Translations under genes and position numbers: made by a program
Shown here: positions 34,912-41,356 of the stretch, piece after piece
Position numbering within the stretch: position 1 is the stretch's first letter
How the letters are laid out: every line of letters begins with the position of its first letter
NCBI RefSeq assembly: GCF_028994805.1
Contig: NZ_JAJQQP010000002.1
Location: 372,001-436,000 of the forward strand
Direction of reading: 5' to 3'
Length of the DNA: 64,000 nt
DNA from: Promicromonospora iranensis
GTDB taxonomy: Bacteria; Actinomycetota; Actinomycetes; Actinomycetales; Cellulomonadaceae
Notes under the pieces: generated by a model
What the model saw: the letters and a program-made list of their open reading frames with translations, nothing else
Told to the model about the DNA's origin: nothing
The model's database searches: none

Positions 34912-36303
34912 ATGGCGAGGGACGAACGCGTAGGAAAGCCCGCGTACGCAGCGGTCTCGACACGGATCACCGGGATCCGAGTGGCTGGCGCGCGCTTGCG
35001 TGAGATCGCCGTCGTACGGATCGACGAGCGAGGCGCCGTGGTCGACGAGTGGTCGGCGGTACTGCACCCGGACGGCGCGTGGATCGCGCTCGCCGACGTC
35101 GCCTCGACCCTGCGCGAGCGCCTGTCGCAGATGGCGATCGTGACCCACAACGGCAGGCTCGGCATCGAGGTGCTGCGGGCGGAGCTGGCTCACCTGGGGT
35201 GGCAGCTGCCCGCGTTCGCCCAGCTGACGACCATCGACGCGAGCTATCACTACCTGCCAGGCCTGGTGCACCGCCGCCTGTCGGACTGCTGCACCGCCGC
35301 AGGGGTCCCGTTCGAGGGCGGCGGCGTCCCGCCGAACACCCACCCGGTCAACGAGGCCCGCGCGACCGCCGGACTGCTGAGCCGGTTCCTGCAGAGCGGG
35401 AACGGAGCGCCCGACCTTCCGGAGCTGCTGCAGGTCACGCTGCGGGCCTGGGTCTACCCCTGGCCCGACGGGCCGAGCCGAGTGGCCGAGCCGCCCCGCC
35501 CCTGGCCGGGCCGACGGGGACCGGGCGTCCTCACGACACTGGCCGGACAACCGCTCGCCGACGCCATCGCCGACGTTGCCGACGTCCACACGCACGGCTA
35601 CCTGGCGCTCATCGCCGAGACGCTCCATGACGGCCGGCTCACCCCGGAGTCGTCCGGCGGGCTCGCGGACGCCGAACCGCTCTACCGGCTGACACCCGAG
35701 GCCGCCACCGACATCCGCCGCAAGTTCTTCGACGCCCTGGTGCGCCAGGCGATCGCCGCCGACCGGTACCACCTGGAGGTTCGGCAGGAGCTGTGGCGGG
35801 TCGCGGACACGCTCGGCTGCCCCCGGGACGCCGTGATCGAGCCGATCGTCGAGGCGACGCCCGTCGAGTTCCCCAAGCTGGACGACGACACCGGCGCCAA
35901 GAAGCCCACCGACGGCCGCCGCGTGGCGACGCCGGCCCAGATGCGGGCCTGGGCCATCGCCAACGGGTTCGACGTCGAGGGCTACATCCGGCTGCCGTGG
36001 TCGATCGTGCGGGCCTTCGAGGAGGCGCACGGGCAACCCGTCGACCGCACCCCGCGCCCGACGACGGCGCACGACCATGCACCGGCCGGGGGCTCGGAGC
36101 ACGAGGAGCCGCGGGCAGGCCTGGACCCTGGTCCCCGTCCCGCTCCGCGCCCGGCACCCGGGGCGACCCCGCGGCCGATCCTGCGTCCCAACCCCCGCCC
36201 TGCTCGCCGCAGGGACCTCGGGCAGGACGACCCCGACGGTGGGGTACCCCAGCTCGAGTTCGACCGGCTGGAGACCCCGCCCATCGGCAACCCGGTGGTC
36301 TGA
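34912..36303 (+). CDS. DnaQ-fold (inactive-looking) and Lsr2-like domain protein
   Basis: 463 aa from ATG 34912. Residues about 10-165 align by eye with DEDDh exonucleases: E-I-A-V-V-R-I-D, V-V-D-E-W, T-H-N-G-R-L-G with L-R-A-E-L and H-P-V-N-E-A-R. The catalytic acids are changed: the first motif reads S-T-R-I-T instead of D-x-E-T, and T-H-N-G-R-L-G has lost its Asp. Near 337-375 a segment R-A-W-A-I-A-N-G-F-D-V with I-R-L-P and A-F-E-E-A-H resembles the Lsr2 C-terminal DNA-binding domain, though its R-G-R minor-groove motif is not conserved. A Pro/Arg-rich tail follows. Its last 55 bp recur at 38825-38879. Confidence 0.7.
   Translation: MARDERVGKPAYAAVSTRITGIRVAGARLREIAVVRIDERGAVVDEWSAVLHPDGAWIALADVASTLRERLSQMAIVTHNGRLGIEVLRAELAHLGWQLPAFAQLTTIDASYHYLPGLVHRRLSDCCTAAGVPFEGGGVPPNTHPVNEARATAGLLSRFLQSGNGAPDLPELLQVTLRAWVYPWPDGPSRVAEPPRPWPGRRGPGVLTTLAGQPLADAIADVADVHTHGYLALIAETLHDGRLTPESSGGLADAEPLYRLTPEAATDIRRKFFDALVRQAIAADRYHLEVRQELWRVADTLGCPRDAVIEPIVEATPVEFPKLDDDTGAKKPTDGRRVATPAQMRAWAIANGFDVEGYIRLPWSIVRAFEEAHGQPVDRTPRPTTAHDHAPAGGSEHEEPRAGLDPGPRPAPRPAPGATPRPILRPNPRPARRRDLGQDDPDGGVPQLEFDRLETPPIGNPVV
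36248..36302 (+). repeat. 55-bp repeat, copy 1 (end of the Lsr2-like gene)
   Basis: Matches 38825-38879 in the same orientation with 53 of 55 bases identical; one change is synonymous and the other is Leu to Phe. In this copy the repeat ends within the TGA stop. Confidence 0.9.
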
Positions 36304-36328: not shown

Positions 36329-37102
36329 TCATGCGGCCGCGAACCGGTACCCCAGCCCTCGGACCGTGTGGATGAAGCGCGGGCTCCTGGGGCTGTCGCC
36401 GAGTTTGCGCCGGACGTTGGCCACGTGCACCTCGACCGTGCGGTGGTCCGCCTCCGTGACCCGACCTCCGTAACGATGTTGGTCGGGCCACAGCATGGCC
36501 GCGAGGTCACCCTTGGCCACGGTCCGGCCGTGTGCGCCGTGGAGGACGGCGAGGAGGTCGAACTCTGTGCGGGTGAGCTGGACGAGCTCGCCGCCCAGGC
36601 GGACCGTGCGGCGTGCGATGTCGACCTCGAGGCACCCTGCCGTCGCGCCGGGCGCGGACTCGGCAGGCTGTTCCGGAGCTGGAGCCGGAGCCGGAGCCGG
36701 AGCTGGAAACGGAGCCGCGTAGCGGCCGGCATGACGCAGGAGGGCCTCGACGCGTGCTCGGAGCTCACGCGGCCGGAACGGCTTGGTGACGTACTCGTCG
36801 GCGCCTGCCTCAAGACCCATGAGCGTGTCGGGCTCGTCGGCCCGGCCGGTGAGCATGACGACGACGGTGTCGGAGAAGGTCCGTAGCCGCCGCACGACCT
36901 CGAACCCGTCGATGTCGGGCAGGGAGACGTCGACGGTCGTCACGACGGGCTCGTGGATCCTGACCAGCGCCACACCCTGCGCACCGGTCGTCGCGGTATG
37001 AACGGTGAACCCGGCCTGCTGCAGCGTGACCTCGATGAGTGCGCGGACGTCCTCGTCGTCCTCGACGACCACCACGATGCCTCGGCCCCAGGGCTCCTCC
37101 AT
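36329..37102 (-). CDS. Orphan OmpR/PhoB-type response regulator
   Basis: 257 aa from ATG 37102. Receiver domain with acidic residues in V-V-V-V-E-D-D-E, the phospho-acceptor D in V-D-V-S-L-P-D and K-P-F; a long Ala/Pro linker; then a winged helix with L-T-R-T-E-F-D-L-L and V-R-G-L-G-Y-R. No histidine kinase is next to it, so its partner is elsewhere. It is followed on the same strand only by the end of the convergent Lsr2-like gene and preceded by the 52-aa gene, so it may be co-transcribed with the glycosyltransferase. Confidence 0.9.
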   Translation of the reverse strand: MEEPWGRGIVVVVEDDEDVRALIEVTLQQAGFTVHTATTGAQGVALVRIHEPVVTTVDVSLPDIDGFEVVRRLRTFSDTVVVMLTGRADEPDTLMGLEAGADEYVTKPFRPRELRARVEALLRHAGRYAAPFPAPAPAPAPAPEQPAESAPGATAGCLEVDIARRTVRLGGELVQLTRTEFDLLAVLHGAHGRTVAKGDLAAMLWPDQHRYGGRVTEADHRTVEVHVANVRRKLGDSPRSPRFIHTVRGLGYRFAAA

Positions 37103-37170
37103 CTGTCGAACGTAACAACGACACCGCCGCGCCGCCGCCCCAGGGCGGCGGTCGCGACGGTGTCCGTGAG

Positions 37171-37329
37171 TCATGCTTCCCTGCGCGGTACGACCCGTCG
37201 TATGGCTGCTCCGGCCGCGATCAGCGCGAACGACGCCAGCGCGAGCCACAGCATGTTCTCGGGGCCCGTGGCTGCCAGGGCTGCGGCGCCGCCGCCTCCC
37301 AGTGTGCTGAGTGCTGCTCCGTTATACAT
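37171..37329 (-). CDS. 52-aa LAXTG-type sortase-substrate-like microprotein
   Basis: An ATG at 37329 starts one base after the glycosyltransferase stop, with AAGGAG inside the end of that gene. The 52-aa product has a short Gly/Ala/Ser-rich N-terminus, L18-A-A-T-G22, one hydrophobic helix (about 26-43) and an R-R-V-V-P-R-R end. That is the layout of a sortase sorting signal with the class E-type LAXTG motif. There is no signal peptide. It is too short for most gene finders. Its position implies translation coupled to the glycosyltransferase. Confidence 0.72.
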   Translation of the reverse strand: MYNGAALSTLGGGGAAALAATGPENMLWLALASFALIAAGAAIRRVVPRREA

Positions 37330-37330
37330 C

Positions 37331-38482
37331 TCACCATCTCCTTTCTCGGTTCATTGCAGAGTCCAGGTATGCCTTTCCATGGCATACCTGAAGAAATATG
37401 TCGAACGGCAGCTCGTAGAGGGTGGCTGCAATCATCTGCCTGACCTTTCCTCGGTCCCGCAGAGTGATGACGCGCTCCATCACGAAAACTCCGGTCAGCG
37501 CCAGCCAGAACGGTTGGATGCTCAGCGACCCCAATGCCACGAGCGACCAGACGATCGTCGCCAGGTACGCCGTGGTCACCAGAATTCCGAGCATGGTCAC
37601 CAGCTGACGGGCCCAGTAGGGCGCGGTGACACGGGTGAGGCCGTACTGGACGCAGTTCTCGATCGCACCGCGCTTCCACCGCAGGCGTTGGGCCCAGAGC
37701 TCCCGCCAGGTCGGCATCACCTCGGTCGTCAGCGTGCAACCCTTGGGCGACAAGATCTTGTAGCCGAGGTGCATCAGGGCGAACGAGATCTCGTTGTCCT
37801 CCGTCAGCACCGTGGTGTCATACACGCCGCCGTGCCCGTCGCCGACCGGGATCTCCCGCGACAACCTCGCTGACCGCACATGCTGCAGTGTCGAGGCACG
37901 AAACACTGCCGCGGTGCCGGTCACGACCAGGCATCTTCCCTTGAGGCGCCGTACGTCCCGCGCGTATCGCGCGTACTCGTTGCGCTGCAGGTGACCGACG
38001 AACCCTCCGCCGTCCTGTCCGCGAAACACGCCGCCGACGGCCCCGAGCCGGCTGTCGGCGGCGAGGTGGGAGAGCGCACTCTCGATGAACTCGGGGTCCA
38101 GCACGCTGTCTGCGTCCTGGATCAGCACGAAGTCGTCTTCCTGAAGCCGAGGAAGTACCACCGACAGGACCTGGTTGAGCGCTCCCGCCTTCTTGTACTT
38201 GTTCCCGACGGTTTCCGTGACGTAGGCGCCGGCGCGTTCGGCGAGGTCGACCGTGTCGTCGCTCGAGTTGTCAGAGACGACGATGACCTCGTCGGGCAGT
38301 CGAGACTGGCGGCTCAGCGCCGTGACCGTCTCGGCAATTGCTTCCGACTCATTGTGTGCCGGAATCAGCACCACGACGCGATGGCGGGTAGAAATACTCA
38401 CCGAGGCATCCGCGATCACGGCCGATTCCAGCGCGGCACCGTATTCGCCGGAAAGCTGCTCGGAGCGTCGTCTCTCCGCCAT
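37331..38482 (-). CDS. Processive family-2 glycosyltransferase (synthase type)
   Basis: 383 aa from ATG 38482 with GAGAGG upstream. The GT-A domain has L-I-P-A-H-N-E-S near residue 40, D-A-D in Q-D-A-D-S, the T-E-D-N-E acidic motif and Q-R-L-R-W, the hallmark of cellulose, chitin and hyaluronan-type processive synthases. Two or three membrane helices (about 285-345) follow. It probably makes a cell-surface or secreted polysaccharide from a UDP-sugar, with galE (UDP-galactose) near by as a possible source of substrate. The stop is one base before the 52-aa gene. Confidence 0.85.
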   Translation of the reverse strand: MAERRRSEQLSGEYGAALESAVIADASVSISTRHRVVVLIPAHNESEAIAETVTALSRQSRLPDEVIVVSDNSSDDTVDLAERAGAYVTETVGNKYKKAGALNQVLSVVLPRLQEDDFVLIQDADSVLDPEFIESALSHLAADSRLGAVGGVFRGQDGGGFVGHLQRNEYARYARDVRRLKGRCLVVTGTAAVFRASTLQHVRSARLSREIPVGDGHGGVYDTTVLTEDNEISFALMHLGYKILSPKGCTLTTEVMPTWRELWAQRLRWKRGAIENCVQYGLTRVTAPYWARQLVTMLGILVTTAYLATIVWSLVALGSLSIQPFWLALTGVFVMERVITLRDRGKVRQMIAATLYELPFDIFLQVCHGKAYLDSAMNRERRW

Positions 38483-38550
38483 GGCGCTGCCTCTCGTGAG
38501 TGTCTGAATGACCACTTCCAGCGTGTGGTCCAGACCTCAGCGCCCAGCAG

Positions 38551-38713: not shown

Positions 38714-38818
38714 TCAGGCGTCCGGGAACCCCTGGGGGTTCTTGGACTGCCAGCGCCAGGTGTCGGCGCACATGTCGTCGATCGTCTTCGTCGCCCGCCA
38801 GCCCAGCTCCGTGTTGGC
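38714..38818 (-). pseudogene. galE: 3' remnant of a UDP-glucose 4-epimerase gene
   Basis: Encodes the last 34 residues and stop of a GalE: N-T-E-L-G-W-R-A-T-K ... W-R-W-Q-S-K-N-P-Q-G-F-P-D-A, matching the C-terminus of the intact GalE at 40334-40438 in most positions (about 27 of 34). The two copies share a perfect stretch of about 26 bp. The remnant is more GC-rich than the intact gene. It is truncated at 38818 and joined to a copy of another gene's 3' end. Confidence 0.85.
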
Positions 38819-38824
38819 GGATGA

Positions 38825-38879
38825 CCCAGTTCGAGTTCGACCGGCTGGAGACCCCGCCCATCGGTAACCCGGTGGTCTG
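38825..38879 (+). repeat. 55-bp repeat, copy 2 (truncated gene end)
   Basis: 53/55 identical to 36248-36302. The reading frame continues past the stop position because TGA is replaced by TGG, so this copy no longer ends a gene. It directly abuts the galE remnant. Confidence 0.9.
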
Positions 38880-38951: not shown

Positions 38952-40253
38952 CTATGCACCTGCCGGCTTGGCGCGTGCAGCGCCCTCGTCGCGCAGTTCG
39001 ACCAGGAAGCTCGGGTCGGCCCGCAGCACGCGAACGAGCGCGTCCAGCGCCGAGTCCAGCGGGACGGACGGCTCACCGATCTGCCGCGAGAGATCCAGCA
39101 AGCCAGCGGCGTGCCAGCAAGGTGCTTGTTCGGCGGACAGTTCCGTGTCCGCAGGCAGGTTCTGGATCGCGGACAGGTTCAGCGGTGTCACTCTGATCGT
39201 CTGAGTCCAGAGCCGCTCATCAGTCAGCACGCCATGGATCAGGCCCTTGCGCCGGAGCTCTTGGGACGAAACGGTCAAGGCTGTGACGCAGAAGAACTCA
39301 GGCTTCGCGCCTCGATCCAGCCACCGCCCGTACCCGACTACGGCCGACCGCCCGATCGCGGTCCGGGAGATGGTCGTCTCTTCACGCAGCTCCCGCTCCG
39401 CGCCACGGCAGATAAGTTCGTGCAGAAAGGACGAGTCCGAATAGTCCCTCGGCTCGAGCGCTCCCGAGCCTGAGGGGGCCAACCGACCGGAGCTGGCCTG
39501 CGACCGTGTTGTCTGGAGAGTCACCACCAGATGATCGTCCGTAGTTATCGCAAGGGTGGATACCCCGATGCTGTTGTCCAGCTTGCTGGAATCGAAGCGG
39601 CGAAAGTCGCCTGAGTCGTCGAACAGGTAGTTCTCGCGGAATCGAAACGGCCCTTCAGGCGCTTCGATGTCCCATCGGGTCAACTCGTTGGAGCACAAGA
39701 GGGAGAAGAAGTTACTCCGCTGTACGACAGCAGGGCGATCCTGTTCCAGGAAGTCTTGGTCGATATCGGTGCACAGTCGAACGTTCGGGCCGTTGAACGG
39801 CCAATGCCCACGCGCGCTGTTCGACATGACATACGGCGCGACGTCGGCCAGTCCTGTCGGCAATGTGTACATGGACGGGGCCATCTGGACCGGCACGAGA
39901 GCGTGCGCAAGTTTCAGGTCCAGCTCAGGATCGAATGCCATCCGACCTTCCGCAGAGAGCAGCACAGAGGGAAGCCCTGGCACAGCAGGAGAGCCTTCGA
40001 AGCTGAGCGGAAGCGATCGAGGAGCCATCACCCACTGCGACCACCGCATCCTGAGCAGAGCACTATCGCGAACGATCAGCGCCAGCGCCGTGACTGTCGC
40101 GAGGACCAGGAGGCCACCGTTGAGCCAACTCGGAATCTTGAGCAGCGAAGGCACCAGCCCGAGAGCGAATCCAGCAAGTCCCGTGACGTAGACCCACTCG
40201 GCTTTCATCAGGAAGCGGACACGGTCGATCGCACTGCGGATCACAGCTCGCAC
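38952..40253 (-). CDS. Membrane-anchored Nudix-hydrolase-like protein
   Basis: 433 aa from GTG 40253 (GGGAG nearby; ATG 40208 is possible). Two hydrophobic helices at about 21-38 and 43-61 are followed by an unassigned region and, after about residue 225, a Nudix-like fold: a beta strand pair (V-S-T-L-A-I-T and L-V-V-T-L-Q) and a box E279-x7-R-E-x-x-E-E (E-R-E-L-R-E-E). The first Gly of the usual Nudix box is not at the standard place. Substrate unknown. Codon use and base composition are lower in GC than neighbours. It sits between two galE sequences. Confidence 0.65.
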   Translation of the reverse strand: MRAVIRSAIDRVRFLMKAEWVYVTGLAGFALGLVPSLLKIPSWLNGGLLVLATVTALALIVRDSALLRMRWSQWVMAPRSLPLSFEGSPAVPGLPSVLLSAEGRMAFDPELDLKLAHALVPVQMAPSMYTLPTGLADVAPYVMSNSARGHWPFNGPNVRLCTDIDQDFLEQDRPAVVQRSNFFSLLCSNELTRWDIEAPEGPFRFRENYLFDDSGDFRRFDSSKLDNSIGVSTLAITTDDHLVVTLQTTRSQASSGRLAPSGSGALEPRDYSDSSFLHELICRGAERELREETTISRTAIGRSAVVGYGRWLDRGAKPEFFCVTALTVSSQELRRKGLIHGVLTDERLWTQTIRVTPLNLSAIQNLPADTELSAEQAPCWHAAGLLDLSRQIGEPSVPLDSALDALVRVLRADPSFLVELRDEGAARAKPAGA

Positions 40254-40333: not shown

Positions 40334-41356
40334 TCAGCTGTCCGGGAAGCCCTGAGGATTCTTGGACTGCCAGCGCCAGGTGTCCGCACAGATCTCGTCG
40401 ATCGTGCGGGTCGCACGCCAGTTGAGTTCTTGGTTCGCGCGGGAAGGGTCCGCCCAATAGGCTGCGAGATCACCGGGACGCCTATCCCCGACCACATAAG
40501 GCAGCTTGCGATCAGACGCCCTTTCGAAGGCGTGCAACAACTCGAGCACAGAGGTACCGACGCCGGTCCCGAGGTTGAAAGCTCGTACTGGTTCGTCCAT
40601 CGACCCCAAGTGCTCCAAGGCGGCAACGTGCCCCGCTGCGAGGTCCATGACGTGGATGTAGTCGCGCTCGCAGGTTCCGTCCGCGGTTGGATAGTCGTCG
40701 CCGAACACCACCAGTTTGTCGCGACGTCCGACAGCGATCTGCGCGATGAACGGCATCAGGTTGTTCGGGATACCCTGCGGGTCTTCGCCGATCTCACCGC
40801 TGGGATGAGCGCCAACGGGATTGAAGTAGCGCAGCAGAGCTACTTTCCAGCCGGCGTGGGCCTTCGCAACATCCGAGAGCACACGTTCGACCATCACCTT
40901 GGTCTGTCCGTATGGGGAAGCCGCCGACAGGTATTCGTACGTCTCCTGATACGGCACCGGAGCCTTTTCCCCGTACACCGTCGCCGACGATGAGAACACA
41001 AGCTTGGCAACACCATGGTTCGCCATTGCATTCGCAAGCGAGAACGTGGAGTCGAGGTTGTTCCGGTAGTACTCCAGCGGTTTGGCCACCGACTCGCCCA
41101 CCGCCTTAAATCCTGCGAAGTGGATGACGGCGTCGATCTGCTCGGTAGCGAAGAGCCGCTCGGTCTTGTCGACGTCCGTCAAGTTGAAGCCGTGTATCGG
41201 AATCGACTTGCCTGACAGCGCCTCCATCCGGGCAATGATGGTGGGCTTCGAGTTGGAGAAGTCGTCGACCACCAGGACGTCGTGACCAGCGGCTACCAGG
41301 GCGAGGACGGTGTGCGAGCCGATGTAGCCGGCTCCACCCGAGACGAGAACGCGCAT
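40334..41356 (-). CDS. galE: UDP-glucose 4-epimerase
   Basis: 340 aa from ATG 41356. N-terminal G-G-A-G-Y-I-G-S-H binds NAD, S-S-S-A-T-V-Y-G precedes the catalytic Y-x-x-x-K (S-P-Y-G-Q-T-K), and R-Y-F-N-P-V-G-A-H is typical. It interconverts UDP-glucose and UDP-galactose for surface polysaccharides and galactose use. GC content is lower than surrounding genes. A truncated second galE end lies 1.5 kb downstream, so this copy may have been acquired by exchange. Confidence 0.93.
   Translation of the reverse strand: MRVLVSGGAGYIGSHTVLALVAAGHDVLVVDDFSNSKPTIIARMEALSGKSIPIHGFNLTDVDKTERLFATEQIDAVIHFAGFKAVGESVAKPLEYYRNNLDSTFSLANAMANHGVAKLVFSSSATVYGEKAPVPYQETYEYLSAASPYGQTKVMVERVLSDVAKAHAGWKVALLRYFNPVGAHPSGEIGEDPQGIPNNLMPFIAQIAVGRRDKLVVFGDDYPTADGTCERDYIHVMDLAAGHVAALEHLGSMDEPVRAFNLGTGVGTSVLELLHAFERASDRKLPYVVGDRRPGDLAAYWADPSRANQELNWRATRTIDEICADTWRWQSKNPQGFPDS

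Follow-up and report, generated by a model that had tools for sequence, protein, structure and literature searches.

Organization of the locus

Within the window (the whole 64,000-nucleotide stretch of DNA analysed here, part of a genome of 5.84 Mb), a GT2 synthase gene (glycosyltransferase, GT; 37331..38482 (-); 383 aa from its ATG, or 394 aa if translation starts at a GTG at 38515) is followed on the same strand by the gene for a 52-aa microprotein carrying an LAXTG motif (37171..37329 (-)) and, downstream of that, by a response regulator (36329..37102 (-); receiver and Trans_reg_C domains by Pfam) that Promicromonospora iranensis and Myceligenerans indicum possess as well. The stop codon of the GT (TGA, 37333-37331 (-)) is separated from the ATG of the microprotein (37329-37327) by a single G at 37330, and the Shine-Dalgarno sequence AAAGGAG of the microprotein gene (37338..37344 (-)) lies inside the 3' end of the GT gene, 8 nt before the ATG. 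These coordinates confirm the first-pass annotation of the locus, which had placed a 52-aa frame with a good Shine-Dalgarno one base past the GT stop. A GC-rich hairpin is found between the microprotein and response-regulator genes (37126..37158 (-); -29 kcal/mol and z -3.1 for the folded 50-nt stretch).

Upstream of the GT, the window carries a copy of the 3' end of galE (106 nt, 79%) and a second one, of 55 nt (96%), that matches the tail of the open reading frame at 34912-36303 (stretches concerned: window 38714-38879, 40334-40439, and 36248-36302). The gene at 38952-40244 stands between these duplicated stretches and galE, which in P. iranensis adjoins the GT. The duplicated stretches look like an insertion or recombination scar.

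The microprotein, MYNGAALSTLGGGGAAALAATGPENMLWLALASFALIAAGAAIRRVVPRREA, whose stop codon ends at 37171, begins with M-Y-N and continues through a Gly/Ala-rich stretch, the motif LAATG (residues 18-22; 37264..37278 (-)) with a predicted cleavage site between T21 and G22, one helix, and the C-terminal end RRVVPRREA. The sole hydrophobic stretch by Kyte-Doolittle hydropathy spans residues 25-43, and AlphaFold2 predicts a confident helix at residues 24-46 (37192..37260 (-)) and, at low confidence, a helix at residues 4-20. The first charged residue is E24 and the C-terminal end is basic (RR..PRRE). Every sequence feature named at first pass (Gly/Ala N-terminus, L-A-A-T-G, one membrane helix and basic end) is present, and the hydropathy reading, with its single hydrophobic stretch at 25-43, agrees with the absence of an N-terminal signal peptide that had also been claimed. 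A Pfam scan of the microprotein returned no match.

The GT matches Pfam PF13641 and PF00535 and scores 100.8 bits against the NCBIfam model PgaC_IcaA, far under the cut-off of 422; its best named match, from P. iranensis, is 89% identical. Processive GT2 synthases are characterized by D, DxD, TED, and Q/RxxRW motifs, and the DxD, TED, and QRLRW motifs are conserved in an alignment of 37 rows (alignment A3), with D134, D136, E239, D240, Q276, R279, and W280 invariant and D82 and T238 conserved in at least 90%. The solved folds nearest to the AlphaFold2 model of the GT (pLDDT 83.9) are viral and frog hyaluronan synthases and the archaeal mannosyltransferase PcManGT. HAS and BcsA have N-terminal transmembrane (TM) helices; such helices are absent from the window GT, for which hydropathy places TM segments only from residue 305 on and the model has its long membrane-type helices from residue 298. 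They are likewise missing from the other GTs with an LAXTG microprotein that were checked (L080, L086, L142, and L143), the exception being a GT from an exosortase-type locus (genome G785; see below), which has an N-terminal TM helix.

Conservation and pairing with the synthase

A pattern scan of a species-level genome collection, which was not a census, recovered at least 59 loci with a GT match, from which 17 distant or short GT2 matches (L062-L078) and one locus cut off in the GT (L054) were set aside. In all 41 of the complete GT loci, the adjoining small frame begins no further than 17 nt from the GT stop, and 40 of the 41 frames belong to the LAXTG microprotein family, the other being of a different type (L057, Corynebacterium). 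LAXTG is present in 37 of the 40 family members, with LAYSG in L043 and L046 and LTYAG in L051; in L032, LAVTG is set further from the helix.

A second sample consisted of 216 genomes of one family, 41 of which had a GT match at E <= 1e-90. All 11 GTs with 61-64% identity have the microprotein adjacent. The other 31 GT matches are 44-49% identical, including one from a genome already counted among the 11, which thus has two copies, and the remaining 30 genomes with a GT of this group had no peptide match at E <= 0.001. Four further genomes of the sample gave peptide matches, strong in G710 and weak in G785, G737, and G682. In G710 (L190/L199), the GT gene is broken into frames and the adjoining microprotein frame is intact. 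A search for LAXTG-TM frames behind GT2 synthases in relatives, the check proposed at first pass, thus found the frame conserved along with the GT, both among the 41 adjacent starts and among the 11 closest GTs.

Codons were compared over 38 sequences (the window and 37 others; L032, L050, L051, and L057 were left out), giving a median pN/pS of 0.25 for the microprotein (398 pairs with pS 0.05-0.6), with the helix region (0.215) below the motif (0.252). The microprotein is more than a chance frame because its position is conserved across several families and because of this low median pN/pS; by these comparisons, the frame is a real gene that is subject to purifying selection and linked to the synthase. 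Three of 26 microprotein relatives match Pfam, weakly and in other families only (DUF6463, MFS_4). Together, the members make up a conserved family of genes of ~50-70 codons, lacking any convincing Pfam match and paired with GT2 synthases in many actinobacteria.

The putative sorting motif and class E sortases

Over the same 38 sequences, the L, A, and G of the motif are each present in 38 and the T in 36, and the X position is occupied by seven different residues. Distant copies begin with MY (MANY in two) and mostly possess L[AP]xTG, including LPETG and LPDTG in the f34 genomes, LPITG in G276 and LPVTG in G617 (two genomes of one large genus, which we guess to be Streptomyces), and LAHTG, LAYTG, LASTG, and LAATG elsewhere; a copy on an Embleya plasmid reads ALAATG. 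The Thr has been lost and the gene kept in four loci, as LAYSG in two sister Arthrobacter and as LTYAG in Arsenicicoccus and G092. Invariant residues also occur in the helix and in the RIVPxR end. MY is conserved at the N-terminus, and the residues from there to the motif vary in number and sequence. Applied to the window's genome, the NCBIfam model NF058583 for small LAXTG proteins gave 22 matches at E <= 10, of which eight were examined. Six of these are the C-termini of other proteins (open frames of 228-1418 aa) in which, as in the microprotein, LA[AST]TG is accompanied by a hydrophobic stretch and a basic C-terminus; the other two are the microprotein and a locus without the motif. By these patterns of conservation and occurrence, the LAXTG motif of the microprotein family behaves like a sorting signal, and the microprotein as a whole has the form of a cell-wall sorting tail without the rest of a protein.

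Sortases (PF04203) were detected in all 50 of the GT-bearing genomes tested, an observation that is weak by itself. Of class E and class F, the window's genome has one sortase each; both are above the NCBIfam cut-offs, and neither is on the window's contig. The class E gene (L001) scores 262.3 bits with NF033747 (cut-off 160), and a sortase E gene, which was to be looked for according to the first-pass annotation, therefore does occur in the genome. The frame directly before the class F gene (L002:455-1938) has a hydrophobic stretch and RRR at its end. In three genomes, a class E sortase gene lies downstream of the microprotein on the same strand, at a distance of 57 nt in G276, 7 nt in G617, and 234 nt in Citricoccus (L050); the respective scores of 177.7, 194.1, and 243.6 bits all exceed the cut-off of 160. 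A tblastn search over 71 GT loci (5.8-64 kb, some from the same genome) found a nearby sortase in those three genomes only, and another locus of G276 (L090) has a LAATG peptide and no sortase nearby.

In the structural report on SrtE1, Tyr229 (in the sequence GHY) is proposed to favour Ala over Pro before X (PMC5148588). The linked sortases have GHF beside LPITG and LPVTG and GHY beside LAMTG. Among the top sortase loci of the genomes with LA-type motifs, 17 of 18 have GHY (L117 gave no match; the class F L002 was not counted), and the f34 sortase loci (L104, L105, and L108) have no GHY. GHY is also found in G092, with its LTYAG, and, where the genome has a motif-free microprotein (see below), in four of seven sortase loci (one GHF, two without a match), so it is the class E default, and the informative part of the specificity match is the GHF/Pro pairing, in two related loci only. 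The observed pairing of motif and sortase, LAXTG with Tyr and LPXTG with Phe, agrees with the published specificity model (PMC5148588).

Exosortase-type loci and a motif-free clade

In two genomes of different families, G785 and G474, a microprotein of the form MYG..LAYTG or MYG..LAATG has a different GT2 and an exosortase-family protein as neighbours (loci L200:6280-8446 and L235:3-2169). With the XrtP-associated GT model (cut-off 520), the GT of G785 reaches 288 bits, and the exosortase of that genome scores 88 bits against XrtS (cut-off 145) and matches Pfam PF09721 above the cut-off; the exosortase of G474 matches the XrtS model at E 2.3e-17, under the cut-off. A pattern search found no such peptide within 1.5 kb of two other XrtS-like loci, and the window's genome, searched with the XrtS model, had no match at E <= 1e-5.

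The GTs of the 44-49% group have strongly hydrophobic N-terminal extensions, with N-terminal TM helices in L151 and L152, and in all 19 of the loci examined, out of the 31 matches, a TM microprotein of ~67-98 aa without the motif stands behind the GT (in L175 it was found only from an internal start). Members of this motif-free family (L165-L183, L009-L014, L057, and L082-L084, directly after a GT2) follow the pattern ..LLPES.L..xFAVLATFVAINT..KILPK.. ETRSIYPD, and Pfam returned no match for any of 20 members. Both types of microprotein end in a similar K/R-I-x-P. Homology between the two is not claimed, as hhalign gave a probability of <2% in both comparisons. On a tree of 46 GTs (midpoint rooting; several branches are long and deep placements unsure), the GTs of the motif-free type group in a single clade (100/99) that sits inside the LAXTG-type branches, and the LAXTG type itself shows two or more losses of the Thr. 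The motif-free clade and the Thr losses fit an old pairing of microprotein and synthase in which the motif is usual yet dispensable.

Gene neighbourhood and the putative polymer

Neighbouring genes were clustered for 50 GT loci, among which at least one genome is represented twice and from which loci with a GT missed by a simple gene caller are left out. The microprotein adjoins the GT in 35 of the 50 loci, a group of convergently oriented proteins occurs in 34, and response regulators occur in 22. The gene immediately after the microprotein codes for a response regulator in the window, G047, and two of the three f34 loci; the regulators near the GT differ in kind and position and are often non-adjacent.

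The convergent protein (L025-L060; ~340-460 aa) has an EIDLCE motif in 28 of 28 proteins, no Pfam match above the cut-off in the four that were scanned, and a weak match to a 1,3-1,4-beta-glucanase among PDB sequences (E 0.031 and 0.096). We take the ExDxxE motif to be a sign of GH16; a GH16 label for the gene would rest on that motif, with no Pfam match over the cut-off and a weak PDB match, and was not adopted. Tentatively, the protein is possibly a distant GH16-like enzyme. A neighbour group from five loci (L139, L140, L141, L051, and L144, by position) was assigned to GH26 by Pfam in the two proteins scanned, and a CE4 deacetylase follows the microprotein in L143 (Pfam) and L238 (by eye). 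The GH26 matches would suit a beta-glycan and the CE4 deacetylases an amino-sugar polymer, and a beta-linked glycan is a plausible product of the synthase.

Proposed role of the microprotein and alternatives

With reasonable though far from full confidence, we interpret the microprotein as a minimal sortase substrate, devoid of a signal peptide, that works with the adjacent GT2 synthase. This reading is favoured because LAXTG is conserved, sortases are present in the genomes, and three of them are linked and have matching specificity residues. The synthase and the microprotein would be made together, and the uncharged N-terminal ~20 residues would cross the membrane as an N-tail, in an N-out, C-in orientation set by the C-terminal RR/KR. 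A class E sortase would then cut between T21 and G22 and join the N-terminal 21-residue peptide (Met-Tyr-Asn ... Thr) to an amine of the cell wall at the site of polymer export by the synthase. The leftover helix would remain in the membrane close to the synthase, with the polymer tethered or organised at the wall by the anchored peptide. The earlier suggestion of a peptide anchored by a class E sortase is upheld in part: the conserved frame, the class E sortase of the genome, the LA[AST]TG tails of other proteins in the same genome, and the three linked sortases with their matching residue speak for it, and the four kept copies without the Thr and the TM microprotein lacking a motif in another GT clade speak against it. 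The Thr losses, the motif-free clade, and the lack of an adjacent sortase at most loci all count against a role in sorting alone.

In the main alternative, which is somewhat unlikely, the microprotein is instead a single-helix accessory subunit that completes the membrane part of the GT2, with LAXTG structural or of secondary importance. The model for such a role is provided by IcaD and PgaD, small membrane accessory subunits of the PgaC/IcaA synthases. The missing N-terminal TM helices of the LAXTG-type GTs that were checked, the invariant residues in the helix and RIVPxR end together with the lower pN/pS of the helix, and the four loci that kept the gene after losing the motif are all in keeping with a subunit, as are L151 and L152, where GTs of the motif-free type have N-terminal TM helices and are still accompanied by a TM microprotein. 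A subunit would leave unexplained the LAXTG with its free X, the match of Ala/Pro to Tyr/Phe, and the linked class E sortases; moreover, the N-terminal TM helix of the G785 GT occurs next to a LAYTG microprotein, and the profile comparison found no homology between the two microprotein types. Sorting and subunit roles are compatible, since docking of the helix to the synthase may go together with cleavage and anchoring of the N-tail.

A further step from the sortase-substrate reading, which we regard as doubtful, is that the microprotein acts as a protein handle, in that the polymer would be joined to the exposed N-terminal peptide, with the near-invariant Tyr2 as one candidate site, or free amino sugars of the polymer would resolve the sortase acyl-enzyme, producing a covalent link of peptide, glycan, and wall. 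The CE4 deacetylases beside the microprotein in L143 and L238 would then supply the free amines, and the exosortase variants would represent parallel versions.

Very improbable is a role of the 21-residue peptide, released or anchored by a sortase, as a surface signal fed back through the neighbouring response regulator; the frequency of the regulator cluster (22 of 50 loci), the loci with a regulator directly behind the microprotein, and the conserved MY would suit a signal, but the regulators vary in kind and position and are often non-adjacent and the segment from MY to the motif is variable. A chance frame or annotation artefact can be dismissed, for although spurious frames are plentiful in high-GC DNA (123 ORFs of at least 40 aa in 16 kb), conservation, position, pN/pS, and the pattern of the motif rule it out.

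Comparison with known systems

If processed by a sortase, the microprotein would have the smallest sortase-substrate architecture known to us, would need no signal peptide for its export, and would be tied to a polysaccharide synthase; Gram-positive bacteria would have a route for coupling the export of a GT2 polymer to peptidoglycan. Through this gene family, GT2 synthases are connected to class E sortases and, in two genomes, also to exosortases, and the pairing of microprotein and synthase suggests an undescribed way to tie sugar-polymer synthesis to the cell wall. The original assertion that no system of this kind had been described holds for the literature, in that searches (with most subscription papers outside their scope) found no account of a pairing of GT2, sortase, and microprotein (passages of PMC13251363 have no bearing on it), and has to be qualified for the databases, in that NCBIfam already contains NF058583 (LAXTG_small_WW, 'LAXTG motif-containing small protein'). 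This model likewise describes a small LAXTG protein, has a name that does not mention a synthase, and matches 34 of 35 members of an alignment of the family (A1) at E <= 0.01 (best, 4.3e-11). The window microprotein scores 24.9 bits against a cut-off of 65, which rules out its membership of NF058583. A search of 39 genomes with the model had no match at E <= 1e-7, and as the controls were blank too, it was uninformative.

Like the microprotein, IcaD and PgaD are small membrane proteins encoded beside PgaC/IcaA-like GT2 synthases; the microprotein differs in its one helix, its LAXTG motif, and the lack of a sequence match, Pfam offering no match of the IcaD/PgaD type for the window microprotein and NCBIfam only LAXTG/LPXTG models. 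The exosortase-associated GT2 systems (NCBIfam glyco_with_XrtP, XrtS) similarly have a GT2 beside a sortase-like membrane enzyme, and two such loci carry a MYG..LAxTG microprotein, as at the window, although the exosortase-type GT is distant from the window GT on the tree.

A sortase-anchored actinobacterial protein that bears a glycopolymer is found in GspA/LcpA of Actinomyces oris (PMC6381275) and is a precedent for a glycopolymer on such a protein. GspA differs from the microprotein in being a Sec-exported surface protein, with a glycan that comes from a separate pathway and is attached by an LCP enzyme (PMC6381275). The substrates of class E sortases, such as the chaplins, share with the microprotein the LAXTG motif with its free X, the hydrophobic helix, the basic tail, and the class E sortase itself (PMC5148588). 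Unlike these substrates, the microprotein has neither a signal peptide nor an exported domain and only ~20 residues before the motif, and it has a GT2 synthase as its constant neighbour.
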